Below, piece by piece: positions 3,369 to 31,910 of a stretch of 32,695 bases of DNA. Under the pieces are notes generated by a model. That model saw only the letters and a program-made list of their open reading frames with translations, did no database searches and was not told the origin of the DNA. The DNA comes from Oscillospiraceae bacterium (GTDB lineage: Bacteria > Bacillota > Clostridia > Oscillospirales > CAG-272). Every line of letters starts with the position of its first letter. Positions within the stretch are counted from its first letter, which is position 1. A program made the position numbers and the translations under genes. The stretch spans positions 1-32,695 of the forward strand of contig SVSC01000011.1 in assembly GCA_015064525.1 (NCBI GenBank), in the 5' to 3' direction.

Positions 3369-3430
3369 TAAGATGTCTTACCATCGTTATATTCGACCCC
3401 GAGGGGATGACGGAAAGGAGCATCAGCGTT

Positions 3431-4213
3431 ATGAAAGATTTGAAGGTTATGAGCTTTAATTTGCGGATCAATTCTCAGGGAGATGGAATCAACCGATTCT
3501 TCAACCGAACCCATCGCGTGCTGGAGGCGATTCGCGGAGAGGATCCCGATCTCATTGGATTTCAGGAGGCGAGCGACGCCATGCGGGCGTTTTTGCGGCG
3601 GGAGCTGAAGGACTATACCGTTCTCGGCTGTGGCAGACACGAGGCATACAACGGCGAGGGGATTCCCGTTGCCTACAAAACCGACAAATTTGAGCTGATC
3701 GGTTTTGAAACCAAATGGCTTTCCAACACCCCCGAGGTACCCGCCTCCCGCTTTGCGGATTCCGACCAGAGCAAATGTCCCCGCATCTACCATTGCGTTC
3801 AGCTGCGGTGCTTGGAGAACAACCAAGTGATTGTCCTTGTGAACACGCACACCGACCACACGGGCAAGGAGGCGCAGGTTCTGGAGGCGCGCCAATTGGT
3901 GGAGCGGATGCGTGCCGTCCGCGCCGACGGATTGATCCTCACGGGAGATCTGAACGCTACGCCCGAGAGCGAAACGGTTCAAACGCTGCTGGGGGATCCC
4001 GCGCTCGGTATGAGGGATGCCACCGCGGGCATTGCGGGAACCTTCCACAACTACGGCAGGCGTATTCCCATGCTCAAGATCGACTACGTGCTGTCCAACA
4101 TGGAATGCGCGGCTTGCTATTGCGTGGAGGACACCCCCGTGGACGGAATTTATATTTCCGACCATCAGCCCACCCTTGCGATTCTTCACATGAGGGACGG
4201 TGAGGAGGCGTGA
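3431..4213 (+). CDS. Endonuclease/exonuclease/phosphatase (EEP) family hydrolase, cytoplasmic
   Basis: A 260-residue protein with the full set of EEP motifs: N10 in VMSFNLR, metal-binding E46 in LIGFQEA, H140 in VNTHTDH, D173 and N175 in TGDLNA, and the closing D244-H245 in YISDHQP. The fold covers DNase I-like nucleases, sphingomyelinases and phosphoesterases, so the substrate cannot be named. There is no signal peptide, so it should act in the cytoplasm. The start is taken at 3431 because AAGGAG (3415-3420) lies ten bases upstream; a frame start at 3407 would leave no such site. It is the first gene of the operon. The lipoprotein encoded at 6312 has a related EEP domain, including the shared KWLSNTP segment, so the two appear to be an inside/outside pair. 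The stop overlaps the next gene by four bases. Confidence 0.85.
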   Translation: MKDLKVMSFNLRINSQGDGINRFFNRTHRVLEAIRGEDPDLIGFQEASDAMRAFLRRELKDYTVLGCGRHEAYNGEGIPVAYKTDKFELIGFETKWLSNTPEVPASRFADSDQSKCPRIYHCVQLRCLENNQVIVLVNTHTDHTGKEAQVLEARQLVERMRAVRADGLILTGDLNATPESETVQTLLGDPALGMRDATAGIAGTFHNYGRRIPMLKIDYVLSNMECAACYCVEDTPVDGIYISDHQPTLAILHMRDGEEA

Positions 4214-6311: not shown

Positions 6312-8141
6312 ATGACGAAAGCGAAAAAGCTGTTGGCGCTCCTGATGGCGCTGGTCCTGCTGCTCTCCATGGCTGCCTGCGGAGATGAGCAGCCCCCCGT
6401 GAGCGGAACCACCGCGCCGCCCGCCAACGTAACCACCCCCGAAACGCCTCCCGAGGATCGCCCCGAGATCTTTCTCATCTCCCAGATCAAGGATTTCAAG
6501 ATTGCCTATTCCACCGAGGTAAGCGACGCAACCATTGCGGCGGCAATTGATCTTTCCGATCGCATCAAGCAAAAGTGGGACGTGAAGATCCCCGTTACCA
6601 GCGATTTTATTCTGGAAAGCAACAAGCAGCAAAAGGAATGGGAGCATGAAATTCTGATCGGTGAAACCAACCGCCCCGCTTCCGCCGCGTTTGGCTCCAA
6701 GCTCCGTCAGAATGACTACGGCTACGGCTTCGTTGACGGTAAGATTGTGATCTACGGCGGCAACGACACCGCGATTCAGAACGCCATCACCATGTTCGCG
6801 CTGGACATTGTTGTGAACCCGCGGGCGGAGGGCGTCTTCTTCCAAAGCGATTGGGAGAAGATCGAGCGCTATACTTATGCCACCGAGGGGCTCACCGTGA
6901 ACGGCGAAGCCATCGACAGCTTTGAGATTATCTACGCGGCAGGCAACACCATGTTTGAAAAGGCAATGGCAAGCCGCCTGCAGAACTACATTGCCGACAG
7001 AACCGGCGTTAACCTTTCCATTCTCACCGACGAGGGCAGCCGCACCGAGGGCAAGAATGCCTTCCTGATCGGAACAACCAAATTCGCCGCCAACGCTCCC
7101 TCCGTTTCGTTGGAGGCAGGCGAGGGCTGTGTGGTTGGAAGCGGCAAGGACGTTGTGGTGCTTGGAAATGACGTTGAGGGCGTTGTGAACGGCTCCAAGC
7201 TGCTCACCGAGCTTCTTTTCCCCGCCAACGCCGAGGCAACCCGCAACGTGGAGATCACCACCGCCCAAAAGTCGGTTGACACCGAGGGCTTCTCCGCCAT
7301 GACCTTCAATCTTTGGGTCAGCAACATGACGGGAGACCGCGTGGATCGCGTGATGAACACCATTTATAAGTATATGCCCGACACGCTGGGCATTCAGGAG
7401 GGAAGTCCCGAATGGATGAACAAGCTCACCGAGAACCTTTCGGGCTATTATGGCATCGTTGGCGAGGGTCGTGAGGGCGGATCCAAGGGCGAGCATACCG
7501 CGATCCTCTATGCCAAGGAAAAGTACAATCTGATCGAGTCCGGCACCAAGTGGCTCTCCAACACTCCCGATAAGGTTTCCAAGCCTGCCGACGCCGAGTA
7601 TTTCCGTATCTTCACCTACGCGCTCCTGGAGGACAAGGAAAGCGGCGTTCGCTATCTCCACCTGAACACCCATCTGGATACCGCCGGCAGCTCGGTGCGC
7701 TCGGCAGAGGTAAAAATCATCCTTCAGTTCCTGCAGGAGTACAACAACGTTGCCGTTGTGATGACGGGTGACATGAACTCCCGCATCACCTCCGCTGAAA
7801 TGCAGCTTTTGATGAAGCACGGCTTTGACAGCGTCACCGATTTTGAGGAGCTTAAGGATATGACCGTGATCGGTCAGGGCGCCAGCGTGATCGACTGGAT
7901 CCTCGTAACGCCCACCTGCATGACCCTCACCTACTACACCACCGATAACAGCTACTACAACGGCGAATACGCCTCCGACCACTTTGCCTACTACGCGGAA
8001 TTCACCGTAAAATATCCTGCCCAGGGAGAGGTGAACAACGGCTGGGACGGTGAGATCAACGATTATCCCGACGAGTGGCTGAACGTGATCCCCGACGGCG
8101 AGGGAAGCGAATTCGGTGACCTCCATATGAACAGAAGATAA
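6312..8141 (+). CDS. Surface lipoprotein: two GH67N-like domains fused to an EEP hydrolase domain
   Basis: A 609-residue lipoprotein (lipobox MAAC, C23) with an AAAGGAG site upstream. After a Pro/Thr-rich linker come two tandem copies of a domain at about residues 55-185 and 205-315. Both share the order FxI-Y, a helix, an extended strand, (F/I)LIG-T, and a VVxGND or IYGGND turn; this pattern recalls the non-catalytic N-terminal domains of alpha-glucuronidases and hexosaminidases. The C-terminal half is an EEP domain: N333 in MTFNLW, E363 in GIQEGS, H454 in LNTHLDT, D487 and N489 in TGDMNS, D556-H557 in ASDHFA. All catalytic positions are present, so an active extracellular phosphodiesterase or phosphatase is likely; the substrate is unknown. 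The KWLSNTPD segment also occurs in the cytoplasmic EEP protein encoded at 3431, which suggests one was derived from the other. Confidence 0.8.
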   Translation: MTKAKKLLALLMALVLLLSMAACGDEQPPVSGTTAPPANVTTPETPPEDRPEIFLISQIKDFKIAYSTEVSDATIAAAIDLSDRIKQKWDVKIPVTSDFILESNKQQKEWEHEILIGETNRPASAAFGSKLRQNDYGYGFVDGKIVIYGGNDTAIQNAITMFALDIVVNPRAEGVFFQSDWEKIERYTYATEGLTVNGEAIDSFEIIYAAGNTMFEKAMASRLQNYIADRTGVNLSILTDEGSRTEGKNAFLIGTTKFAANAPSVSLEAGEGCVVGSGKDVVVLGNDVEGVVNGSKLLTELLFPANAEATRNVEITTAQKSVDTEGFSAMTFNLWVSNMTGDRVDRVMNTIYKYMPDTLGIQEGSPEWMNKLTENLSGYYGIVGEGREGGSKGEHTAILYAKEKYNLIESGTKWLSNTPDKVSKPADAEYFRIFTYALLEDKESGVRYLHLNTHLDTAGSSVRSAEVKIILQFLQEYNNVAVVMTGDMNSRITSAEMQLLMKHGFDSVTDFEELKDMTVIGQGASVIDWILVTPTCMTLTYYTTDNSYYNGEYASDHFAYYAEFTVKYPAQGEVNNGWDGEINDYPDEWLNVIPDGEGSEFGDLHMNRR

Positions 8142-8170: not shown

Positions 8171-9832
8171 ATGAAACGCAACGTAAAGCTTTTTTCCATA
8201 ATTCTTGCGCTGATCTGCGCGTTCTCCACGCTTTCCATGATGGCGGTGTCGGCTGAGGCACCCGCCTACGTTGAAATTCCCGAGGGCGCGGAAACCGTGA
8301 CCGTTGACGGCGCAGAATATACTGTCATCCGCACCGCCGAGGAAATGAACGCCAACGCGGACGCGAAGATCAACCTTATTCTTGCCAACGATCTGGACTA
8401 TACCGGTCTGGAGTTCAAAAAAATCAGACTGAACGGCACCACCGTCAATGGCAACGGCTATGCGATTTATGGCTTTAGCCTTACAGGCACCAATGATATT
8501 AGTGCGTTCGGTGCAGACAATGCGGCAGGCTTCAACGTGATCAAGAACTTGACCATTGGCCAGCCCAACAACAAGGTTCAGATCAAATCCGAAACCAGCG
8601 GCAAGTCTGTAGGCACTATTCTCGGGTATTCCAATGCGAAGCATACCATTGAGAACGTTACCGTTTATGCCGATATCAGCACCGTGAACGGCAACACGGG
8701 AGGCTTCGGTGGCAATATCAAGGGTACTCTGAATATGAAAAATTGCGCCTTCTACGGCACCATCACCGATAAAAGCGGCAATCCCAACGGCGGCTTAATC
8801 GGTAAAACCAACAGTCTTGTGCTGACCATGGAAAACTGCTGCAATTACGGAACCATTGATTGCAGTGCGGATGCTGCGGGCATCATTGCCAAAACCAGCG
8901 GAACCGGAATCCACACCTTAACAAATTGCGCCAACTTCGGAACGATCAAGGGCAGCTCCGCCGCGGGGATCATCGGCTCCCACGGAACCAACAGTGAGGT
9001 AACCGTTGAAGGCTGCTTGAATGCGGGCACCGTCAACGCAGTTAACAATGGCGGCGGTCTTTTGGGTTGGTCCCATGCGGATAGAACAATCTCCTTCACC
9101 AACTGTGTGAATATTGGTGTTATCACCTCCAATGGTAAGGCAGGCGGTCTTGGTGCTTTCTCCTACCAAAAGCACTCCTATAACAACTGCGGCTCCTTTG
9201 GCTCCGTTGCTTCTGCCGGCACCGAGTGCGGCGTATTCTTCGGTCAGAACGATGCAACCACCGGCACCGCAACCAACCTGTTCTACACTCCCATTGAGAA
9301 TACCACCAACTCCATTCTCGTTGAGGGGGCAACCCAAAAGACACTCGCCGAGGCAATTGCTTGGACGAATGAGCTGATCGGTGCAAATGTTGGTAATCTT
9401 GTTCTGAACACCGCGGGCAACGGCGCGGTTCTCGCGGCTCCCAAGTTTGCGGGTGTGCAGGAATCCGCTGTGGCAGAGGGAACCTTCGACGTTCGTTTTG
9501 TTGCAACCCTCAACGATTCTCTCAACTATTCCGCGGTCGGCTTTGAAGTTGCACTGGTTGGCGGCAAGACCGTTACCAAGGAGTGCGGCAGCGTTTACGG
9601 CAAGCTCCTCAGCACCACCGAGCAGGGCTTCGACGCAGAGGTAACCGCCGCTCAGCTGCAGGGAACCTATCTGTTCGCGCTGGCAATCGAGAACGTTCCC
9701 GCAACCGGCACCGTCACCTTCACGGTAACTCCTTACGCAAAGGCTTTGGACGGTACCACCGTTTACAGCGGCGCTTCCTACAACGTAACCTACGCCAACG
9801 GCGTGTACGTTGGAATCAGCGCTTGCGTTTGA
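8171..9832 (+). CDS. Secreted parallel beta-helix (GLUG-like repeat) protein, cassette 1
   Basis: A 553-residue exported protein with a signal peptide ending near AVSA (residue 28) and no lipobox or LPxTG anchor. Residues about 44-100 form a cap with the pattern TAEEM...LANDLDYTG...NGNGYAIYGF. From about 110 to 375 there are repeated NCxNxG(T/V)I...GG(L/I)xG turns, like GLUG-type beta-helix adhesins and glycan-binding proteins. Residues about 425-553 form a separate beta-rich domain (GVQESAVAEG to VTPYAKALDGTTVYSG) shared with the second copy. AAAGGAG stands seven bases before the ATG. No catalytic motif was seen, so binding or structural roles are likely. It is a close paralogue of the gene at 10054, and each is followed by a short acidic peptide gene 31 bases later. 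Confidence 0.78.
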   Translation: MKRNVKLFSIILALICAFSTLSMMAVSAEAPAYVEIPEGAETVTVDGAEYTVIRTAEEMNANADAKINLILANDLDYTGLEFKKIRLNGTTVNGNGYAIYGFSLTGTNDISAFGADNAAGFNVIKNLTIGQPNNKVQIKSETSGKSVGTILGYSNAKHTIENVTVYADISTVNGNTGGFGGNIKGTLNMKNCAFYGTITDKSGNPNGGLIGKTNSLVLTMENCCNYGTIDCSADAAGIIAKTSGTGIHTLTNCANFGTIKGSSAAGIIGSHGTNSEVTVEGCLNAGTVNAVNNGGGLLGWSHADRTISFTNCVNIGVITSNGKAGGLGAFSYQKHSYNNCGSFGSVASAGTECGVFFGQNDATTGTATNLFYTPIENTTNSILVEGATQKTLAEAIAWTNELIGANVGNLVLNTAGNGAVLAAPKFAGVQESAVAEGTFDVRFVATLNDSLNYSAVGFEVALVGGKTVTKECGSVYGKLLSTTEQGFDAEVTAAQLQGTYLFALAIENVPATGTVTFTVTPYAKALDGTTVYSGASYNVTYANGVYVGISACV

Positions 9833-9863
9833 TTATGTGAAATTTGATTTGGGAGGTAACAGT

Positions 9864-9989
9864 ATGAAATACGTAACACCCTACCTGGAGCTTCTCGCCA
9901 TGGAGGAGCAGGATATTCTGACCTTCAGTGTTCAGGAGGCGGGCAACGCCGATAACGACGTGCTTGACTTTGGTGATCTGCTCGGCTAA
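9864..9989 (+). CDS. Short acidic 41-residue peptide, cassette 1
   Basis: An ATG at 9864 with GGGAGG at 9851-9856 opens a 41-residue frame. The product begins MKYVTPYLELL and ends GNADNDVLDFGDLLG. It has nine acidic residues and one lysine, no cysteine, no signal peptide and no membrane segment. A degraded second copy lies at the same place after the paralogous beta-helix gene: of the last 26 residues 23 agree, and in the 81 aligned bases 8 of 11 changes are silent, which is strong evidence of a real, selected protein. The N-terminal YxxPxLE...DILTxS layout resembles short hypothetical proteins common in gut Clostridia (recalled, not searched). The function is unknown; a partner, chaperone-like tag or secreted signal for the beta-helix protein are all possible. 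Confidence 0.75.
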   Translation: MKYVTPYLELLAMEEQDILTFSVQEAGNADNDVLDFGDLLG

Positions 9990-9994
9990 TAAAA

Positions 9995-10009
9995 ATCGGC
10001 TTTGCCGAT
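9995..10009 (+). other. Small intercistronic hairpin
   Basis: ATCGGC and GCCGAT pair around a TTT loop just after the peptide stop and 45 bases before the second beta-helix start. There is no U-tract, so it is not a terminator; it could mark an mRNA processing or stability point between the two cassettes. Confidence 0.35.
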
Positions 10010-10053
10010 CTAACGGTCGGCGCACAAAACTACGATAAGGAGAACAAGAAAAT

Positions 10054-11742
10054 ATGAAACGCAACGTGAGACTCTTTTCCGTGATTCTCGCTTTGATCTG
10101 CGCGATTTCCATGTTCCCGGCAATGCGCGCAACGGCGGCTCCCGCGCCTCACGAGCAGATTGATCTTCCCGACAATATGGAGACGATCATGATCGAGGGT
10201 GAGGAATATCGGATCATTCGCACCGCCGAGGAAATGAACAACTATGCCGAAGCAAGGGTGAACGTGATTCTTGCGGCAGATCTGGACTACACGGGTCTGG
10301 ATTTCAAAAAGATCAAAACCGCGGGAACCACCTTCAACGGCAACGGCTACGCAATTTACGGCTTCGAGGTGGGAGGCGATGGCAATCCCTCCGTATTCGG
10401 ATGCGACAATATGTCGGGCACCGACGATTTCAACGTCATTCAGAATATTACCGTTGGTCTGCCCGATCGGAAGGTTAAGATCAGCTCCGAGCTGAGCGGC
10501 AAATCGGTTGGAGCCATTCTGGGCTATTCCAACGCAGAGCATACGCTGGAGAACATCACCGTTTACGCCAACGTTTCCTCCAAGGGAGGCACCACGGGTG
10601 GCATTTGCGGAAACGTGAAGGGCATTCTGAACATGAAGAACTGCGTCTTTTACGGCACCGTAACCGAAACCGACGGCGGAACCGTTGGCGGTCTTTTCGG
10701 AAAGGTGAACAGTCTTTCCCTCACCATGGAGGATTGCGTCAACTACGGCGCGGTCAGCGGAACCAACGATGCGGGCGGCATCATTGCCTCCGTAACGGGG
10801 AATGCCTCCGCTCCCAGCACGGTTGTGATTCGGGGCTGCGCAAACTTCGGCATGGCTGCGGGCTCCTCTGTTGCGGGCATGATCGGCTCCGCGGGAACCA
10901 ATGGCACCATCGCCATGGAAAACTGCCTGAACGTGGGCTTGGTTGATGCCAAGAGCAACGGCGGCGGACTTTTCGGCTACTTGAAGAACTGCGCCTCCGT
11001 TGAGGTTTCCAACTGTGCCAACGTGGGCGCCGTGAATTCCAAGGGCAAGGCGGGCGGTCTTTTTGCAATGACCGTTCCCACTCTGAAGATTGATAACTGC
11101 GGAACCTTCTCTCTGGTTTCCTCCACAGGCACCGAGTGCGGCTCTCTGGTTGGTCAGAACGATGCAACCGTGGCGTCGGCAACCAATCTGTTCTACACTG
11201 CCGCAAAGACTACCACCAACACCCTTCTCACCGAGGGGGCGACCCAAAAAACGCTGGAGGAGGGCATTGTGTGGACAAACGCTCTGTTCGGCAAGACCTT
11301 TGGAAACCTGATTCTGAACTCCGACGGAAATTGCGCTGTTCCCGCCGATCCTCAGCTGGTGGGTGTTCAGGAGTCTGCCGTTGCGGAGGGCAAGTTCAAG
11401 GTTCGTCTGGTTGCAACCTTGAACGACTCTCTGCGCTACAGCGCCGTGGGCTTCACCGTTGCGCTGGAGGGCGGCAACACCGTTACCAAGGAGTGCCAAA
11501 GCGTTTATCGCAAGCTGATCTACACCAAGGCGGATAACACCACGGGCGAGATCACCGCGGCGCAGCTGGACGGCACCTATGTGTTTGCCCTTGCCATCGA
11601 CAACGTCCCCGCAACGGGAACAGTTACCTTCAAGGTAACCCCCTACGCAAAGGCTCTGGACGGCACCACCGTTTACAGCGGCACCTCCTACAACGTAACC
11701 TACACCAACGGCGCGTACGTTGGCACCCTTGCTTGTGATTGA
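10054..11742 (+). CDS. Secreted parallel beta-helix (GLUG-like repeat) protein, cassette 2
   Basis: A 562-residue paralogue of the gene at 8171, clearly alignable from end to end by eye. The signal peptide starts MKRNVRLFSVILALICA; cleavage is likely near TAA-APA (about residue 28). The cap, the NCxNxG...GG(I/L)xG turns (about 110-385) and the C-terminal beta-rich domain (about 436-562, starting GVQESAVAEG) are all retained. A small insertion near residues 110-120 contains a cysteine absent from copy 1. AAGGAG precedes the ATG by about 13 bases. The close similarity of signal peptide and C-terminal domain with more divergence in the middle turns suggests that the helix face is the variable, ligand-facing part. 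It is probably in the same operon as copy 1 and is followed by a broken peptide gene. Confidence 0.78.
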   Translation: MKRNVRLFSVILALICAISMFPAMRATAAPAPHEQIDLPDNMETIMIEGEEYRIIRTAEEMNNYAEARVNVILAADLDYTGLDFKKIKTAGTTFNGNGYAIYGFEVGGDGNPSVFGCDNMSGTDDFNVIQNITVGLPDRKVKISSELSGKSVGAILGYSNAEHTLENITVYANVSSKGGTTGGICGNVKGILNMKNCVFYGTVTETDGGTVGGLFGKVNSLSLTMEDCVNYGAVSGTNDAGGIIASVTGNASAPSTVVIRGCANFGMAAGSSVAGMIGSAGTNGTIAMENCLNVGLVDAKSNGGGLFGYLKNCASVEVSNCANVGAVNSKGKAGGLFAMTVPTLKIDNCGTFSLVSSTGTECGSLVGQNDATVASATNLFYTAAKTTTNTLLTEGATQKTLEEGIVWTNALFGKTFGNLILNSDGNCAVPADPQLVGVQESAVAEGKFKVRLVATLNDSLRYSAVGFTVALEGGNTVTKECQSVYRKLIYTKADNTTGEITAAQLDGTYVFALAIDNVPATGTVTFKVTPYAKALDGTTVYSGTSYNVTYTNGAYVGTLACD

Positions 11743-11773
11743 CCCGCAGGTTGATTACAAGGTGGCAGACACA

Positions 11774-11898
11774 ATGAAATACGTACCCCCCACGCAGCCC
11801 TTTTCTCCTCGGAGGCTCAGGATATTCTAACTCTCAGCGTACGGGAGGCGGGCAACGCCGATAACGACGTTCTCGACTTTGGAGAGCTGCTTGGCTAA
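11774..11898 (+). pseudogene. Frameshifted second copy of the short acidic peptide gene
   Basis: ATGAAATACGTA at 11774 matches the start of the peptide gene at 9864, but the span to the aligned stop is 125 bases instead of 126. The missing base lies at or next to a run of six C at 11785-11790. In the initiating frame a stop comes after 18 codons. One base further back, the frame reads EAQDILTLSVREAGNADND and ends FGELLG, the same as copy 1 apart from three substitutions. Its ribosome binding site (AAGGTGG) is weaker than that of copy 1. Options are a recent pseudogene, a base-calling or assembly error in the C-run, or slippage that restores the frame. Confidence 0.7.
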
Positions 11899-12160: not shown

Positions 12161-12189
12161 AGCGGCTGGGTCCCGCCACCCCATCCGCT
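12161..12189. repeat. Covarying hairpin, variant form
   Basis: AGCGGCTGGG (12161-12170) pairs with CCCATCCGCT (12180-12189), with one C-T mismatch. In the other two clusters the same stem reads AGCGTTTTGG/CCAAAACGCT. Two T-A pairs have become G-C pairs on both sides. Confidence 0.7.
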
Positions 12190-12533
12190 CCATGATGTTA
12201 GTTTGTTTGAACTGTTTTGGAAACAGATAAAATTTCATTCTCGGGGACGGAATAATCAAATTTTAACTGAACGAACGTCGATCCTTGAAAGCGGGCTTGC
12301 CCGCCCGCCACCCTAAACGCTCCATAAGGTTAGATTGTTTGAACTGTTTTGGAAATAGATAAAAATTCATTTTCGGGGACGGTATCAAGGAATTTATTCT
12401 ATACGAAGGTCGAGTTTGGAAAGTGGGCTTGCCCGCCCTTCTTGAAAGAAGGTTTCAAAATCCAATCTTCCTTTCCCAAACCAATTCTCCAAGAAGGCTC
12501 CGCGAACCATGCTTTCCTTTCGAAACGAGCCTC

Positions 12534-24046: not shown

Positions 24047-27000
24047 TTACGATCCTCTTTTTTTGTTGATATTGGTGACAATCCGAATCGCCGTTATGAG
24101 AACCAATCCAACCACGGGAATTGCATAGGCGGGGAGAGAGGACTTTTTCTCCTCCTCCTCGGAGGCTGCCTCCTCTGCGGGAGCCTGTTCGTTGGATTTC
24201 TCCGCGGAGAGGCGCTTTGCGTTTCTTTTTTTGTCGATGACGGCAGTGACGATCCAGAGCGTGATTACCAGAACCACCACGGCTGCCAGCGCGATGCAGA
24301 TCAGGAGTGTGGGATCCTTCTTGTTTTCAACGGGAGGCTCCACAACGGGAGGATCCTCGGGCGTGGGCTCCTCGGGGAAATGCTCGCGGAAGGGGCGGTT
24401 GAAGTCGGGCTCCATGCCCATCACAACGGTCAGCTCCTCCAGCTTTGCGGAAAGGCGAGGCGCGTTTTCAACCAGCGCTTGCTCCTCCTTGGAGAGGGCT
24501 TCAAACGCTTCCTTTGCTTCCTTCACGGCCTCAAAGGCGTACTCGGAGCAATCCAGATCAAAGAGGTGCGCGATCTTATCCTCGGCAACGTCAATCAGAT
24601 ACTCGCTGCGCGCCTTTTGGAAGCGGTCGATCAGCGCCTGATCAACAACTGCAAGCTCCTCGGGATGACCCTCCAGGGCGTTGTAGGCAACGATGGCGGC
24701 ATCAACCAGCAGCTTATCGAAGCGATCGGTTACGGCGGGCAGCTTCTTGGCGGCGTCGGTAAAGGCGATGGCGAACTTTCCTGCGGTTGCTCCGGAGGTT
24801 TCCTCGGCAACGGTGAAGTATGCGCGGTAGATCATGGAATCGTAGCCCTCGCAGTTATCGGGAAGCACGCAGGTAAGTCCCTGTGCGTCGACGGATCCAA
24901 CCGTACCAATGAAGTTCGAGTAGTAGAAGGGAGTTCCGAGAATTCCCTGGGTGTAGAAGTAATAGTCGTAGGCGTAGAGCTGATCAAAGCCGGGGAACTG
25001 ATCAACGTTTTCCTTGTTGATTCCGATCTCCTCGCTCATGGTGCCCTCCAGATCGGGCGCGTAGTAGGAGCGGAAAACGAAGGTGTCCAGATTTTCGCAC
25101 AGATAGAATGCGTAGTTGCCGATCACACGGAGGGATTCGGGAAGAATCACCTTTTCCAGATACTTGTTGAGCATCACGGCACAGTACTCGATGCGAACGG
25201 TTCCCTCTGCCACGGTGAAGGTGGAGTCGGTTTTTGCCGCGGGATAGCAGGAAAGCTCATAGCCGTTCTCGATTACTCTGTAGAGAACACCGTCCTTGAT
25301 CATGATGTGATCAAACTGATGGTCGGTCAGCTTTTTGCCGTCCACGGTTGCGTAGAAGCTCTTGAGGCTGTCGGCTCCCTCGAAGGCACTGAAGCCCATC
25401 TCCTTGAGGGTGGAGGGAATTTCAAACTCCTCCAGAGCGGTGAGGGCGAAGGCGCCCGCGCCGATATGCTCCAGCTTGGGGGCGTAGAAGCCGCGGAGCT
25501 TTTTGCAGGCGGCAAATGCCTGGTCGCCAACGTAGAGCAGGTTGGGAGCGTTCACGAATTCCACGTAGTGGAGTCCCTGCTCCTCCATTTCGATAAAGGC
25601 GCTGGCGTCGATGTACTCAGCCTTCTCCAGATTCAGGGTTTTGGGCAGGGGAACGCCGTAGAAGGCGCCCATGCCGATGCGAACCAGATTGGAAAGGTCG
25701 ATCTCGGTGAGCGCGGTGCATCCGTAAAACACCAGCTCGGGCAGCGCGGTGAGGGTTTCGGAGAGGGTCACGCGCTTCAGGTTTTCGCAGAACGCGAAGG
25801 CGGTGGAGCTGACGCTGGTTGCCTTGGAAAGGTCGATCTCGGTGAGGTAGATACAGCCGTAGAAGGCGCTTTCGCCTATGGAACGCAGGTTCGGAGCGTA
25901 AATGGTGGTGAACGATGCGCCGCTGAACGCGTTTTCATCGTAGGGAGCGAATGCGTTCATGCCAACGATCGCCAGATTTTCGGCGCTGAAGTGCTTCAGG
26001 TTGGGACAATCCGCGAAGGCACCCACACCCAGCTCGGTGACGTTGGGCATATTCACGCTAACGATTCCGGTGCATCCGAAGAACGCGGTGTTGCCAACGG
26101 TGCCCATGAGCGCCTCAAAGTCGAAGCTGCGGAGGCTCTTACATTCCATGAAGGCGCCCTCCCCAACGGTCACGCCGTTGCCGGTCAGGCGAACGGTGGT
26201 AACGCCGGTTTGGCAGAAGGCGTAATCGCAGATGATCGCGTTGCTGCCTTCGATCACAACGGTTTTCAGCACGGGGCAGCCATAGAAGGCGGCGGCGCAC
26301 AGAATCAGGTTGTTTTGACGGAAGGTGACGGTGGTGAGCGCGGTATTCTCGAAGGCGAATTCGCCAACAAAGGTAACCAGCTCGGTGTTCAGGGAGCTGA
26401 GCATATTGGACTCAAAGAATGCGTAGTTGCCGATCCTAACCGCTCTTTCGGGAAGCGTTACGGTGGTGAGGATGGGGCAAAGCGCGAATGCCGCGTCGCC
26501 GATTTCCTTCAGCTGAGAGCCTGCCTCAAACCGTACGTCGGTGATGCCGTTGTTTGCGGAGAAGGCGCCCGGCGCGATGGTGGTTACGCTTGCGGGAACG
26601 GTGAAGGTGCCGGAAACCGCGCCGGGAACGGCGAGAACCAGCGTTTTCATATCCTTGGTGTAAACCACACCGTTGGAAAGAACGTAGGGATTGGATGCGT
26701 TGAGGTTAAAGGTGATGCTGCTCAGCTTTTCAAACAGACCTGCGCCTGTTTGCGTCAGACGGGTGTTCTCCGCGAAGATCAGCGTGTTGAGCGCGGAGGA
26801 GGAGAAGCAGCCATCGCTCAGAGTAAGGGCGTTGTTGGGAAGGGTGAAGGACTTCAGGGAGGTGCAATCGGCGAAAGCGTAGGCGCCGATGATCTCGCAG
26901 ACCTTATTGAAGGTGACCGTGGTCAGTCTCTTACAGCCGCGGAACGCCTCGCTGCCCAGATAGGTGAGGTCGCCGCTGAGGGTAACCTGCGTGAGCTTGG

Positions 27001-30000
27001 AGCAATTCTTGAAGGAGGAGTCGGCAATCGAGTCGCCGAAGATTTCCACGGAGGTTACGGCAGAGCCCTCAAACATACTCTCGGAAATTCTGGTGCGCTG
27101 ACCGAGAACAACGGTTTCCAGCTTTGCGCACTCCGCAAAGGAGCCCTTGCCGCTGAGGCTCAGGTTGGAGAGGGTCACGGACTTCAAACGGGTTTTTGCG
27201 AAGGCGTAAGCACCGATGGAGGTAACGCCTGCCAGGTTCACACCGCCCAGATCCTCGCAAGCGAGGCTGTTGCAGTTATAGAAGGCGTAGTCGTTAATCA
27301 CGTGAACGTTATCGAAGTTGACGTTCTCCAAACGTTCGCAATTGTAGAAGGCATACTGATTGATGGTTTTGCAGCTGGTGGGAAGGGTTACGTTTCTCAG
27401 AAGCTCACAGTTGTAGAAGGCGTATTTCTCAATGGTTTCCACGTCCTCGGGGATCACCACGGAGGTCAAGGTCTTGTTACCGATAGGCTCTTTCTTTTCA
27501 TCAATATCGTAGTAACCGTTTTCGTCCTTTTCCACTTCCTTTTTATTATCCATATCGAAGTGAGAGAAGGCGAAGGAGCCGATGATGGTAATACCCTCGT
27601 CATCGGGAATCACCACGTCGCCGCCCTTGCCCTTGTAGGCAACCAGCATACGGTTCTCGATAATGAACTCGCTCTTAACCTCCACGGAACAACGGGCTGC
27701 CAGCAAGGAGGTTTTGCCGTCTATGGTGATCTGCAGGGTAATGCGCGCCCGACCCTCGCTCTCGGCGGTGACAATGCCGTTCTCGTCAACGGTTGCGACC
27801 TTGGGATTACTGGAGGACCACTTCAACGTGTAGCGATCGGGAGTGAGGTTCCAAGGCTTGAGCTGATAGAAGAGCTGCACCTGCTCGGAGGGGTAGAAGG
27901 AGAGGGACGCCGACTTGCCGAAATAGCCGGTGGAGCCGGTGATTCCGATCTCGGAGTAATCAATATCGCTGTTAAAGGCGAACAATGTATAATAGGAAGA
28001 GAAATCCAAGGACTCGATCTGGGGCTTTTCAACGTCTGCCTCCTTGCCGCTGACGTTGATCACAATGGTGCGGTAGAGGGGTTTTTCCACCTTCTCGCCG
28101 TTCACCGTTTCCGTGTACGTCCAGGTAGAGCCCGTAACGCTAACGGTGGCGGAGCCGCTCTTCAACGCCTGAATCTGACCGTTGTGGACGGCAACCACCG
28201 ATTCATCGGAGGAGGTCCAGGTAAGGGTTTTCAGGTAATCAACGGTTACAGCCTCGTCGCTGTCGGGGCGCGCCAGATAGGTGGTGAGGTCGAAGGTCTG
28301 GTTGATGTCCAGATCCATCGAGGGAACGATGAATTCCAACTCCGAATTTTTGGTTTCGGGGAAGGGAACGAAGCAAATGTTGGAGTTCATTGCATAGTCA
28401 TCCAGGAAGAAGGTGATTCCTTCGGGGTTTGCGGACGATGCAATGCGATCAATATAGTCGGTGATCTCAATCTTCACCTTGGTGGACTCCCCGCGGTTTT
28501 CCTGATATACGGGAATGGGGTTGTTGCTGAGGGAGGCGTAGGTTCTCTCCAGCTCGCCCTTGGGGTTGGTGAACTCATAAGCGATGATGGGGCGAACCGA
28601 CATTGCGTAGTGGTTGTCGTAAACCGTGAGGTCCACGTAGTAGCGGTTTTCCTTCAGGGTTTTATCGTATTCGGAGTAGAAATAAGCGTCGGTAACGGTG
28701 GGAGCCTGGTAGTCGATATAGAAGGAGAAGCTATAGCTGTCGGAATCGTTGCTTCCGCCGTTCCAGTCGGCCTTCGCGGAGAGGGTAACCTCATATTTCG
28801 CGTTGTTATAGCCGAACACCTCACCGGTTTTGTAATTTGCCATCGGAATATCCATCATGGCAACGTAGGGATAAGGAGATCCGTTGTAGTGTGCCTTGGG
28901 GCAATCGTACTTGGTTTCGGTCCAAACCACCTCGCCCGTTGTGGCGTTGGAGATGGTGATGTTCAGCTCCTTGGCTCCGCGGAGCAGACCCGCGAAAACG
29001 CCGTAGATTCCGCTGATGGCATCCTGATAGTAGGAAATTGCGGCATGCTCACGGGTTGCGGGAATGGGCGTGTACTCGGATTCGTCCATCTGATAAACGT
29101 AGCTTCCGAGAGGCAGAATGTAGTCGTAGTAGTAGGAGCCTGCGGGGGTTGTGGGATAGTAATCGGCCTTGATCTTGTCGTCGTCATCAATGGCGTTGTT
29201 GTGCGCCTCGGTTTCCACCTCGTAGTAATCCAGGTCGAAGATGGGAGCCTCGCCCCAGTCGCCGTAGAAGGCGAGGAAGGGAGCGTTCAGGTCAACGCCG
29301 TTCTCTCGGGTGTTTTCAAAGGTCAGGAAGCCTTCAATAAACATACCGTTGGCGAAATTGGCGTTGAGGTACGCCTTATCCTCCTTGGAGAGGGTGATGG
29401 TTGCGGTTACGCTGGCGCATCCGCCTGCGGGAACGGTGAGAATTCCGTTCTCAAGGGTACCGTTCGCAACGGCGTAGCTTGTGGAATTGGAAAGGAGGTA
29501 GCCGATTTCAGCCACCACTTCGGGATCGGAGGTGGAAACGCTTTCGGTCATGGCAATGTTGCCCAGCTTGTAGCTCACGGCAGCATCCGAAAGGTTCTTC
29601 AGCTGAATGGTCATGATGTAAACGCCCGAGCGGTGAGGATCGTCTCCCAGCTCCAGCTTGGTTTTGCCGCTTCCCTCAACCAGAAGATAAGCGTCGGTGG
29701 TGGTTGCCTTGAGAATATCGGCAATGCCCGCGCCCTGCTTTCTGGGGGAATAGGGGTTGCCGTTACGATCCAGCGCGATGGTTGCGGTGGACATACACAG
29801 CTGATTTACAAGGTCACGCACCTGCTCGGCGGTGAGGTTCGGGTACTTTTCCTTCACGTATTGGCGGATCAGCACGGTGATACCGCACATATTGGGTGCC
29901 GCCATGGAGGTTCCGCTGAGCTTATCGTAGCCTCCGCCAACGATTGCGGAAAGAATGTTTCCGCCGTGGGCGGTGATCTCGGGCTTGAGCGTCAGATCGG

Positions 30001-31816
30001 GGTTGGGGCCCCAGCTGGAGAAGTCGCTCATAAAGGGACCAGCCAGATTGTTGATATCGAAGAGCAGGGTTCCGCCGGGCTGCATGGCGAGGAGATCGCC
30101 GTCGTCCTTACCAATGGAAACCGCGGGAATCTTTGCGTCGTTACCGATGGTCATCATAATGTCGCCGAACACGTTGTTATAAATGATCACGGCGATGGCG
30201 CCTGCCTCATAGGCGAACTGCACCTTTTCCTCAAAGGTGATGTCGCCGCGGCGAACCAGCGCGATCTTTCCGTTCATGTCCAGACCCGCATAGTTGATGG
30301 CGAGACCGAAGCCGGGAACCGATACGTACTCAAACTCGGTGGGATTATCGGCGGTAATGCCCATCATTGCGAAGAAGTCGTACTCCTTGGCATTCTGGTT
30401 TACGGACTCATGGAAGAAGACCTCGCGAGTTCCGTTCGCCAGCATATAGCGATCCTTGTTACCGTTGATCGAGGCAACCGAGAGGGCAGCCTTGTAGGTG
30501 GAGGGAGCGCCAACCGTGGAGGAATCGGGATTATCGGTTTTATTGGTGTTACCGCCCTCGGAGCCGAAGGCGCTGCTATAGTCGTTGGATGCGGCAACGA
30601 TCAGGGAGATGCCGGCGCGCTCGATGTTATCGTAAAGGGTGTTTTTGTAATCGTCATCTGCCTCTCGGGTGAATCCGCAGGAGGTACCCAAGCTCATGTT
30701 GATGGCGTCCACGCCCAAAATGATGGAGTCCTCCAGCGCGGCAAGAATGTCACCGTCGTCGGCGCCCACCTCATAGTCGCTGAACACCTTCATGATTGCC
30801 AGCTGCGTGTCAATGGCAACGCCCGTGATGGTGTCGTCCATACCGCCGATGATGCCGGCAACGTGGGTTCCGTGCTCATTGGAGAAGGGCATAATATCGG
30901 CATCGCGATCGGCGTAGTCATAGCCGAAGGCAATTTTGTTGCCGGTAATGTTTCCGTAGTAAACCTCTCTTGCCTCCAGGGAGGGATCATAGCTGTATGC
31001 CATGGTTTTGGGGAGCATATCTGCAATATCGTCGCGGTCATAGAGGGGGGATACCACCTGATGAGAGGTGAAGGCGGTGTGCGTGTAGTCACAGCCGGTA
31101 TCCAGAATCGCAACGATGGTTCCCTTACCCGTGTAGCTGATGTCGCTGCTGTTGAAGATACCCGTATCGTAAACGTTCACGGGGTTTTCCACGGCGGCGG
31201 CTGCCTCATAGGTATCGGAGATCGTAATGCGCTCCACGCCCGGAATCTCGGCAATCTCGTCCAGCTGCTCAAAGGTGGTGGTCACGTAGGCACCATCCAT
31301 AATGCTGCTGTAGGTGTACTTCACCTCGGAGATCAAGCCTTTGCCCTGCAGCATGGAAAGCACCTTTTTCTGGTTGTCCTGCAGCTGCAGCTGCAGGCGT
31401 CTTGCCTCGGCGCTTCCGCTGAACTCGCGGTAGCTCATGCTTTTCGAGGCAGAGGAGGAGCTGTAGGTGTTGATCAGGGAATTCTCGGAAAAGGAGAGAA
31501 TCACGCCCACGGAGCCCGTGAGCTTCAGCTCATCAACCTTTTGGATGAGATCCTGATTGATCGACTGCAGAAAGTCCTTTTTCAGCTTTGCGATCACCTC
31601 GTCGCTCTGAAAGTGACCGATCCCCGAGGCTTGCCCCGTGAGATTGGAGCCCGAAGAGCCCGAGGAGCCGGGGAGCAGGGAGGAGATGTCGCTGATCGCC
31701 GCCATACAGCCCAAAGAAAGGGACTGCACCAGCAATGCGATGAGCAACAGCCAGGTGGTCAGAGCGGCGAGGGGGCGCCCTGTGCGTTTGGTTTGGGAGT
31801 TTTTACTTGTTTGCAT
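24047..31816 (-). CDS. Giant surface subtilisin-like (S8) protease with PA, Ig-like and LRR_5 repeat domains
   Basis: A 2589-residue exported protein. A signal segment covers about 15-40. A propeptide-like region precedes the S8 catalytic domain, whose triad is complete: D239 in ILDTGCD, H315 in HGTHVAG, S637 in SGTSMAAP. A PA domain is inserted before the serine (about 460-560, with LVRRGD at 525), as in C5a-peptidase and lactocepin-type enzymes. An Fn3-like region follows, then two BIG2-like domains (about 1175-1260 and 1310-1380), a long run of BspA-type LRR_5 repeats (about 1395-2260; repeats of YAFYNC and similar), a helical FIVAR-like stretch (about 2370-2465), a Pro/Glu spacer, and two hydrophobic C-terminal segments (about 2502-2527 and 2562-2585). 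There is no LPxTG. The ATG at 31816 follows AGAGGA; a frame start at 31900 lies within the promoter and is ruled out. Confidence 0.9.
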   Translation of the reverse strand: MQTSKNSQTKRTGRPLAALTTWLLLIALLVQSLSLGCMAAISDISSLLPGSSGSSGSNLTGQASGIGHFQSDEVIAKLKKDFLQSINQDLIQKVDELKLTGSVGVILSFSENSLINTYSSSSASKSMSYREFSGSAEARRLQLQLQDNQKKVLSMLQGKGLISEVKYTYSSIMDGAYVTTTFEQLDEIAEIPGVERITISDTYEAAAAVENPVNVYDTGIFNSSDISYTGKGTIVAILDTGCDYTHTAFTSHQVVSPLYDRDDIADMLPKTMAYSYDPSLEAREVYYGNITGNKIAFGYDYADRDADIMPFSNEHGTHVAGIIGGMDDTITGVAIDTQLAIMKVFSDYEVGADDGDILAALEDSIILGVDAINMSLGTSCGFTREADDDYKNTLYDNIERAGISLIVAASNDYSSAFGSEGGNTNKTDNPDSSTVGAPSTYKAALSVASINGNKDRYMLANGTREVFFHESVNQNAKEYDFFAMMGITADNPTEFEYVSVPGFGLAINYAGLDMNGKIALVRRGDITFEEKVQFAYEAGAIAVIIYNNVFGDIMMTIGNDAKIPAVSIGKDDGDLLAMQPGGTLLFDINNLAGPFMSDFSSWGPNPDLTLKPEITAHGGNILSAIVGGGYDKLSGTSMAAPNMCGITVLIRQYVKEKYPNLTAEQVRDLVNQLCMSTATIALDRNGNPYSPRKQGAGIADILKATTTDAYLLVEGSGKTKLELGDDPHRSGVYIMTIQLKNLSDAAVSYKLGNIAMTESVSTSDPEVVAEIGYLLSNSTSYAVANGTLENGILTVPAGGCASVTATITLSKEDKAYLNANFANGMFIEGFLTFENTRENGVDLNAPFLAFYGDWGEAPIFDLDYYEVETEAHNNAIDDDDKIKADYYPTTPAGSYYYDYILPLGSYVYQMDESEYTPIPATREHAAISYYQDAISGIYGVFAGLLRGAKELNITISNATTGEVVWTETKYDCPKAHYNGSPYPYVAMMDIPMANYKTGEVFGYNNAKYEVTLSAKADWNGGSNDSDSYSFSFYIDYQAPTVTDAYFYSEYDKTLKENRYYVDLTVYDNHYAMSVRPIIAYEFTNPKGELERTYASLSNNPIPVYQENRGESTKVKIEITDYIDRIASSANPEGITFFLDDYAMNSNICFVPFPETKNSELEFIVPSMDLDINQTFDLTTYLARPDSDEAVTVDYLKTLTWTSSDESVVAVHNGQIQALKSGSATVSVTGSTWTYTETVNGEKVEKPLYRTIVINVSGKEADVEKPQIESLDFSSYYTLFAFNSDIDYSEIGITGSTGYFGKSASLSFYPSEQVQLFYQLKPWNLTPDRYTLKWSSSNPKVATVDENGIVTAESEGRARITLQITIDGKTSLLAARCSVEVKSEFIIENRMLVAYKGKGGDVVIPDDEGITIIGSFAFSHFDMDNKKEVEKDENGYYDIDEKKEPIGNKTLTSVVIPEDVETIEKYAFYNCELLRNVTLPTSCKTINQYAFYNCERLENVNFDNVHVINDYAFYNCNSLACEDLGGVNLAGVTSIGAYAFAKTRLKSVTLSNLSLSGKGSFAECAKLETVVLGQRTRISESMFEGSAVTSVEIFGDSIADSSFKNCSKLTQVTLSGDLTYLGSEAFRGCKRLTTVTFNKVCEIIGAYAFADCTSLKSFTLPNNALTLSDGCFSSSALNTLIFAENTRLTQTGAGLFEKLSSITFNLNASNPYVLSNGVVYTKDMKTLVLAVPGAVSGTFTVPASVTTIAPGAFSANNGITDVRFEAGSQLKEIGDAAFALCPILTTVTLPERAVRIGNYAFFESNMLSSLNTELVTFVGEFAFENTALTTVTFRQNNLILCAAAFYGCPVLKTVVIEGSNAIICDYAFCQTGVTTVRLTGNGVTVGEGAFMECKSLRSFDFEALMGTVGNTAFFGCTGIVSVNMPNVTELGVGAFADCPNLKHFSAENLAIVGMNAFAPYDENAFSGASFTTIYAPNLRSIGESAFYGCIYLTEIDLSKATSVSSTAFAFCENLKRVTLSETLTALPELVFYGCTALTEIDLSNLVRIGMGAFYGVPLPKTLNLEKAEYIDASAFIEMEEQGLHYVEFVNAPNLLYVGDQAFAACKKLRGFYAPKLEHIGAGAFALTALEEFEIPSTLKEMGFSAFEGADSLKSFYATVDGKKLTDHQFDHIMIKDGVLYRVIENGYELSCYPAAKTDSTFTVAEGTVRIEYCAVMLNKYLEKVILPESLRVIGNYAFYLCENLDTFVFRSYYAPDLEGTMSEEIGINKENVDQFPGFDQLYAYDYYFYTQGILGTPFYYSNFIGTVGSVDAQGLTCVLPDNCEGYDSMIYRAYFTVAEETSGATAGKFAIAFTDAAKKLPAVTDRFDKLLVDAAIVAYNALEGHPEELAVVDQALIDRFQKARSEYLIDVAEDKIAHLFDLDCSEYAFEAVKEAKEAFEALSKEEQALVENAPRLSAKLEELTVVMGMEPDFNRPFREHFPEEPTPEDPPVVEPPVENKKDPTLLICIALAAVVVLVITLWIVTAVIDKKRNAKRLSAEKSNEQAPAEEAASEEEEKKSSLPAYAIPVVGLVLITAIRIVTNINKKRGS

Positions 31817-31881
31817 GTTTGCTTTCCTCTCGTTTTTTGCTTTTTGATGTCGAAAACACCTATGGATAAATATACTATAAT

Positions 31882-31910
31882 ATAATACCACAATAGCCAC
31901 CTTTTGTCAA
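31882..31910 (-). promoter_or_regulatory. Near-consensus promoter of the protease/Opp operon
   Basis: Minus strand TTGACA (31905-31910), 17-base spacer, TATTAT (31882-31887). Transcription should begin near 31875, leaving about 60 leader bases before the ATG at 31816. No other clear promoter was found between the genes down to 15490. Confidence 0.8.

Follow-up and report, generated by a model that had tools for sequence, protein, structure and literature searches.

A peptide gene paired with secreted beta-helix protein genes in an Oscillospiraceae bacterium as a probable precursor gene resembling the linear phosphorylated peptide kind

Results

Two tandem cassettes of a secreted protein and a short peptide

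We analyzed a 32,695-nucleotide (nt) stretch of DNA from an Oscillospiraceae bacterium (GenBank assembly GCA_015064525.1, contig SVSC01000011.1, positions 1 to 32,695 of the forward strand; hereafter, the window), in which two open reading frames (ORFs) for secreted beta-helix proteins, 62% identical to each other, lie in tandem, each followed by a peptide of which one copy is an intact 41-residue ORF. We propose that this ORF probably encodes the precursor of a ribosomally synthesized and post-translationally modified peptide (RiPP) resembling the linear phosphorylated peptide (LPP) type, processed in trans and paired with its secreted partner. Sequence comparisons show a peptide family, its pairing with genes for a C-terminal domain, an enzyme locus elsewhere in the genome, and the co-occurrence of peptide and enzymes. 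The features of the two cassettes are as follows.

8171..9832, plus strand: secreted beta-helix protein, copy 1, 553 aa (ORF, AlphaFold model)
9449..9811, plus strand: C-terminal domain (A2 type) of copy 1, ~120 residues (profile A2, E 2e-43)
9864..9989, plus strand: 41-residue peptide, proposed LPP-like RiPP precursor, intact (GGGAGG 5' of the ATG)
9864..9923, plus strand: proposed leader, residues 1-20, with YxxPxL as Y3, P6, and L8, and conserved D17 (alignments A1 and A5; LPP leaders in the excerpts of PMC13381572)
9927..9929, plus strand: codon of Ser22, proposed phospho-acceptor, 19 residues after the leader Tyr (alignment rows; analogy with LPP)
10054..11742, plus strand: secreted beta-helix protein, copy 2, 562 aa (ORF, comparison with copy 1)
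11359..11721, plus strand: C-terminal domain of copy 2 (profile A2, E 1.6e-41)
11774..11898, plus strand: peptide copy 2, frame-broken (ATG frame, displaced tail)

An earlier reading of the window, made from its sequence alone (hereafter, the sequence-only reading), had described a repeated two-gene unit with the peptide start 31 nt past the beta-helix stop, and this was borne out at both copies (ATGs at 9864 and 11774). A Shine-Dalgarno-like GGGAGG precedes the intact ORF of copy 1, while in copy 2 the ATG frame closes after 18 codons (11830) and the conserved tail runs in another frame to a stop at 11898. No other intact peptide of the 41-mer family was detected by a motif scan of the whole window. 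Counted from the QDIL codons onward, the two tails differ by 11 base changes, of which 8 are silent, exactly as that reading had reported. An NG86 estimate over 27 codons, with one more included, gave dN 0.077 and dS 0.67 (ratio 0.11; two sequences, and hence a small sample), compared with dN 0.31 and dS 1.05 for the two beta-helix genes.

The peptide belongs to a family maintained as protein

In the window's own genome (G000; 2.18 Mb, 149 contigs, 82% complete), a query with the single peptide returned 7 matches at E ≤ 10, and a 12-row profile returned 16 matches on 14 contigs, all with E < 0.004. Across the genus set of 35 genomes, own genome included, the peptide was found at E ≤ 0.01 in 30, of which 8 carried 10-21 matches and 22 carried 1-8. 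The consensus reads MKxYxxPxLExxxLxxxD[IV][IL]xTxS, followed by an acidic tail. An aromatic residue stands 19 positions before the conserved Ser in 40 of 45 rows of alignment A5 and in 11 of 14 peptides chosen by their place in the genome. This rule delimited a core in 51 of 59 peptides; in these cores acidic residues outnumber basic ones by 3.9 on average, and 46 of the 51 hold a W or F within the final 12 residues. Most of the peptide starts inspected are preceded by Shine-Dalgarno-like sites.

A further sign of selection came from G125, a genome outside the genus with 6 peptides lying 11-18 nt after large ORFs, most of which start beyond the fetched DNA. In five dispersed paralogues (L299, L300, L301, L303, and L304), the closing 26 residues, DIITLS onward, are identical; 15 of these 26 codons vary, all of them silently, and in the preceding 11 codons 6 change the residue. 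Together with the 16 matches in the own genome, this silent variation places the peptide beyond chance, and it indicates that the core is kept as protein, in agreement with the low dN/dS of the window tails and with the selection that the sequence-only reading had claimed. Since the five identical cores follow five different large ORFs, the core need not match its neighbor.

The secreted partner and its C-terminal domain

The AlphaFold model of copy 1 shows a beta-helix at about residues 120-370, with a mean predicted local distance difference test score (pLDDT) of 58 overall. When this model was searched against the PDB, 3n6z alone fell under E 0.001 (E 1.9e-4), a Bacteroides protein labeled as a putative IgA1 protease; no protease domain was found in either beta-helix protein of the window by comparison with Pfam. 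Copy 1 matched no Pfam family at E ≤ 1, and its single NCBIfam match (E 0.0033) lay far below that model's cut-off. The C-terminal domain of ~120 residues has 18 matches in the own genome, where it is carried on varied N-terminal modules. Among 14 domain members searched against Pfam and NCBIfam, no family was matched by more than one (best E 0.0019 and 0.0032, respectively), and because structure prediction of two domain sequences gave low confidence, no fold is claimed. Likewise, none of 45 peptides matched Pfam at E ≤ 0.1, and 12 peptides compared with NCBIfam gave nothing convincing, with one weak match to a lasso peptide model (E 0.087). Neither of these two families, the peptide and the C-terminal domain, could thus be assigned convincingly to a named one.

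Peptide and domain genes are paired in the genome and its relatives

In the own genome, 14 of the 16 peptide matches adjoin genes for the C-terminal domain, and the other two (C3:9328 and C1:10110) follow proteins with different C-terminal ends. Seen from the other side, two of the 18 domain genes are cut by a contig end; among the 16 left, 12 have a peptide downstream (one of them frame-broken), those on C78 and C29 have one directly upstream, C94:17134 starts ~20 nt after its neighbor's peptide, and the domain gene of C88 stands on a contig without any. As these same loci supplied the profiles, the count is not an independent one.

From relatives, the best 60 peptide places outside the own genome were examined, some of which duplicate one another (near-identical contigs in G011, G014, and G020). 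An ORF ended -10 to 80 nt upstream of the peptide in 49 of the 60 places (median gap 16), and several of the other 11 lie at contig ends. An A2-type domain was present on 23 of these 49 ORFs. Under a strict rule, a signal-peptide-like start was scored for 25 of 33 complete upstream ORFs vs. 15 of 167 control genes; a lenient rule was dropped, since half of the control ORFs passed it (103/202 and 46/88).

The reverse comparison began from the best 75 domain matches outside the own genome. By coordinates alone, 26 had a listed peptide less than 250 nt downstream, and none had a listed peptide on the opposite strand (~95 peptide places compared, all from domain-bearing genomes). The DNA of 41 of the 49 remaining matches was read, by rule and by eye; this gave 14 loci with a peptide downstream, 7 with one upstream, 14 with none seen (in 3 of which the upstream side lies beyond the available DNA), and 6 undecidable because the stop falls outside the DNA. 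The motif rule alone had given 7 downstream and 6 upstream-only peptides in the 32 loci with more than 150 nt of downstream DNA, two of the upstream ones being false by eye; accepted besides were 7 downstream peptides seen by eye and missed by the rule, and 3 upstream peptides found by the rule outside those 32 loci. In all, an adjacent peptide was found at 47 of 61 decidable domain genes of other genus members, so that the arrangement recurs there, and the absence of such a frame beside homologous beta-helix genes, which would have refuted the sequence-only reading, was not observed. Exact 19-residue spacing from aromatic to Ser held in 11 of the 14 downstream peptides, compared with a mean of 1.4 and a maximum of 6 in 2000 shuffles, although 7 of these 14 came from the rule itself, which requires an aromatic residue and a later Ser at loose spacing.

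The pairing has departures. G001 carries 10 peptides and no A2-type domain, and the domain is therefore not obligatory. G118, outside the genus, has 10 peptides, 9 of which precede a gene flagged for a signal peptide by a rule run without controls (the flag at L297 is wrong by eye).

A kinase-RRE-peptidase locus accompanies the peptide

On another contig of the own genome, C79, three consecutive genes recall a RiPP pathway built around a discrete RiPP recognition element (RRE).

G000:C79:2448-2921: signal-peptidase-like gene (TIGR02228 E 2.6e-6, under cut-off)
G000:C79:2924-3208: PqqD-type discrete RRE (PqqD E 1.3e-18)
G000:C79:3229-3972: HprK-like kinase (P-loop GVGKSTH)

PqqD (PF05402) occurs in 31 of the 35 genus genomes, in 27 of them as a standalone copy with E < 1e-16. 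Against the PDB, the RRE profile matched TbiB1 (2.5e-7), TfuB1, LppB (9x8z, 3.6e-4), and PbaB1, with TbiB1 scoring above LppB. An Asp invariant in 9 of 9 RRE rows falls at the placed position of LppB D70, the residue that holds the leader Tyr according to the excerpts of PMC13381572. The kinase matched no Pfam family; its matches to HprK_rel_A (E 0.0012) and ScmC (E 0.0076), like the ScmC match of the G023 kinase (E 6.1e-7), lie far under the cut-offs. In the peptidase, the Ser, His, and Asp were located by eye at GxSMxP, LHR, and RGDN. NTP_transf_5 is present in 24 of the 35 genus genomes; the own copy lies on C118, not C79, and in G023 it stands at the RRE locus.

With the kinase profile, 33 named loci were found, two of them from one assembly (RGIG3898). 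All three genes were present in 32 loci, kinase and RRE were adjacent in 29, and the three were directly consecutive in 28; the TIGR02228 matches of L174 and L176 (E 0.0012 and 7.7e-5) are both below cut-off. Five of the 33 loci (L187, L210, L211, L212, and L217) also have a peptide of the family no more than 1.5 kb away from the set, some loci being cut by contig ends, and these five constitute a direct tie between peptide and enzymes. The loci come mostly from Clostridia, Clostridiales, and Oscillospiraceae, with a few from Faecalibacterium, Erysipelotrichaceae, and Ruminococcus and one from Phocaeicola; by their record titles, 16 of the 33 stem from ruminant samples (deer, sheep, goat, or buffalo). 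The Phocaeicola locus (L218), in a metagenome-assembled genome of an uncultured species of this Bacteroidota genus, has a distant relative of the kinase, 33% identical over part of its length, and close to it two matches to the RRE and one signal-peptidase-like match.

Co-occurrence was then assessed in a family sample of 146 genomes from 71 genera, with the RRE called at E ≤ 1e-6 and the peptide at E ≤ 1e-4. The RRE was found in 87 genomes and the peptide in 45, most of which hold 1-3 peptides. All 45 peptide genomes had the RRE vs. 42 of the 101 others (Fisher p 1.2e-13), and without the four genus members the RRE was still found in 41 of 41 (p 1e-12), both values being uncorrected for kinship. 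Within the genus, 27 genomes had peptide and RRE, 3 the peptide only, none the RRE only, and 5 neither (p 1.7e-4); these 5 lack a standalone RRE and NTP_transf_5 alike, and 4 of them are only 71-80% complete.

Other features of the window

The gene directly upstream of the cassettes ends 29 nt before the first beta-helix ORF.

6312..8141, plus strand: Exo_endo_phos protein with a lipoprotein-like start (by eye), 29-nt gap to the cassette (Pfam E 1.2e-8)

This gene possibly forms one transcription unit with the cassette. A terminator scan around the cassettes showed no excess over shuffles and so supports no claim about transcription units. A second window protein (3407-4213) also has an Exo_endo_phos domain, and Exo_endo_phos-like proteins were seen by eye near peptide or domain genes in relatives (L116, G025:C189, and G014:C43). 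At 12172-12435, 3' of the second cassette, a 132-nt unit stands in direct tandem, its two copies 81% identical. On the minus strand, 24047-31900 encodes a 2617-aa subtilase with PA, fn3_5, and Big_2 domains and many BspA-type leucine-rich repeats.

Discussion

A modified peptide is the favored interpretation

The best conserved part of the peptide is its leader-like YxxP...S half, and this, with the association with an RRE, a kinase, and a signal-peptidase-like gene, points to a precursor that is modified and cleaved. In the scheme that we favor, the peptide would be translated from the beta-helix transcript; the close spacing and the Shine-Dalgarno site are seen, and co-transcription is inferred. 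By analogy with the lpp cluster, the PqqD-type RRE of C79 would bind the leader at YxxPxL, the adjoining HprK-like kinase would phosphorylate the conserved Ser (Ser22), and the archaeal-type signal-peptidase-like protein encoded beside them would cut the leader near DhhTxS (h, hydrophobic), the proposed cleavage point being only approximate, near Thr20. The NTP_transf_5 protein of C118 may alter the phosphate further. The acidic core, with its W or F near the end, might then be exported and serve as a ligand, tag, or surface linker with the secreted protein. Pairing with domain genes makes action with the secreted protein plausible, and the identical G125 cores speak for a tag or signal shared by all partners rather than a fit to each one.

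Several observations weigh against this scheme. In G030, although the genome is 94% complete and carries 21 peptides and 31 domain genes, no RRE and no kinase were found; we regard it as a real exception, for which a lost locus, an assembly gap, or another enzyme set are the options. G006 likewise has 2 peptides, and neither RRE nor kinase was found there. Both genomes lie outside the family sample, and the third exception within the genus, G031, has a kinase fragment at a contig end. The own kinase resembles known families weakly (best E 0.0012), with no PDB match at E ≤ 0.1, and the own peptidase match stays under the TIGR02228 cut-off. NTP_transf_5 is missing from the peptide-rich G017, G025, and G027, and at 14 of the 61 decidable domain genes of relatives no peptide was seen. 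Finally, the LPP consensus (excerpts of PMC13381572) agrees with the peptide only partly: YxxPx(hydrophobic) is there, as is the Ser further on, mostly with a nearby Thr, but not HQ or FET, and the spacing is 19 rather than 18.

RiPPs are usually released from the cell. The peptide might be phosphorylated and cleaved as proposed and yet be released as a cell-cell signal or antimicrobial, with the secreted protein a separate, merely co-regulated product. We consider this unlikely, though it is the alternative to be taken most seriously: the same core behind five different large ORFs in G125 fits it, whereas precursors that in the own genome follow domain genes singly, instead of clustering at the enzyme locus, do not.

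That the peptide acts unmodified, as a chaperone, export pilot, or binding peptide of the C-terminal domain, appears to us improbable. The tight pairing with domain genes would be expected in that case, as would the correlation between the numbers of peptides and domains per genome in the genus (Spearman 0.75, or 0.73 when the own genome is left out) and the state of G030, where peptides and domain genes are present with no RRE or kinase found. It would leave unexplained, however, why the leader-like half is the best conserved part, why no peptide genome in the family sample lacks the RRE and 27 of 30 in the genus have it, and why a peptide lies close to the kinase-RRE locus in five cases; moreover, peptides also stand beside proteins without the domain and, in G118, upstream of other genes, and G001 has ten of them with no such domain at all.

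A lasso peptide precursor (a threaded macrolactam), with the secreted gene a chance neighbor, is very improbable: the YxxPxL leader, the Thr near the proposed cleavage site, the single weak lasso match among 12 peptides, the likeness of the RRE to lasso PqqD models (TbiB1 best in the PDB), and five weak PF13471 matches (E 4e-4 to 7e-4, below cut-off) speak for it, but the B2 protease (PF13471) is over cut-off in none of the 35 genus genomes and absent from the own genome at E ≤ 0.001, a signal-peptidase-like gene occupies the locus instead, and pairing with domain genes across many genomes is not incidental. We rejected this candidate for want of a B2 over cut-off, no search having been aimed at the cyclase.

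The favored reading of a processed LPP-like precursor also modifies what the sequence-only reading had suggested, namely, a dedicated partner, export helper, or signal for the beta-helix protein. A real, selected peptide does accompany such secreted proteins; an export helper as such found no support, given that the leader-like half is best conserved and that its presence is linked to that of the RRE, the HprK-like kinase, and the signal-peptidase-like gene. What remains of the partner idea is that the core, once processed, may have the co-encoded protein as its target or associate.

More tentatively, and with rather less than even confidence, we suggest a genome-wide decoration system, in which most secreted proteins with the C-terminal domain would each have a precursor expressed alongside, one central kinase-RRE-peptidase set would phosphorylate, and perhaps glycosylate, all precursors, and the products would bind these partners or link them to the cell surface or matrix. 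If true, this would mean that RiPPs of the LPP kind serve a structural purpose in the secretome and do not act as free natural products.

The findings suggest a RiPP pathway acting in trans on up to ~20 precursors per genome, an enzyme link that cluster-based mining would miss. Most members of a secreted family in this bacterium have such a proposed precursor as neighbor, which offers a handle on the purpose of the modified peptides. According to the excerpts of the 2026 paper PMC13381572, the biological role of LPP is unknown; precursors that come singly, with identifiable protein partners in many relatives, make the role of this kind testable.

Comparison with known systems

In the Paenibacillus lpp cluster, as described in the excerpts of PMC13381572, the RRE binds YxxP, the kinase adds phosphates to core Ser3, and, assisted by the RRE, a signal-peptidase-like enzyme removes the leader by cleavage behind Thr; the precursor motif is YxxPxVLxHQxIxFETxxS, with Ser3 18 residues after Tyr. 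Both systems share a discrete RRE, an HprK-like kinase, an archaeal-type signal peptidase I-like gene, and a precursor that has YxxPx(hydrophobic) near its N terminus and a conserved Ser further on; the absence here of a lasso B2 over cut-off is a further likeness. The features of LPP also include an MsbA-like transporter and an NTP transferase in the core cluster; here NTP_transf_5 occurs in 24 of 35 genus genomes, at the RRE locus in G023 but away from it in the own genome. LPP clusters, however, hold one to three precursors in the same excerpts, whereas the own genome has 16 matches on 14 contigs, none of them on C79. Because the precursors lie mostly outside the cluster and the motif is only partly matched, we call the peptide LPP-like and not a member of LPP. 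Among the literature matches listed, in a coverage that leaves out bioRxiv and most subscription journals, the LPP phrase occurred only in PMC13381572, and no such precursors beside secreted or surface proteins were described.

Paeninodin-like and other lasso peptides resemble the present system in their RRE-bound leader motif and in tailoring by an HprK kinase and an NTP transferase (excerpts of PMC13381572), and kinase, PqqD, and nucleotidyltransferase genes accompany ruminal lasso clusters (excerpts of PMC7533575). In contrast, the leader here has Tyr rather than Trp, the RRE Asp aligned to the Tyr-binding Asp is invariant, and no B2 was over cut-off in the 35 genomes.

Prochlorosin precursors lie dispersed and are not known to be tied to secreted protein genes. 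Like the system proposed here, they are served by one promiscuous enzyme, ProcM, acting on many precursors, but they differ in being lanthipeptides of the Nif11 family (excerpts of PMC10783134). Set beside these systems, the LPP kind itself was known already; what is new is that the proposed LPP-like precursors are dispersed and paired with secreted-protein genes.

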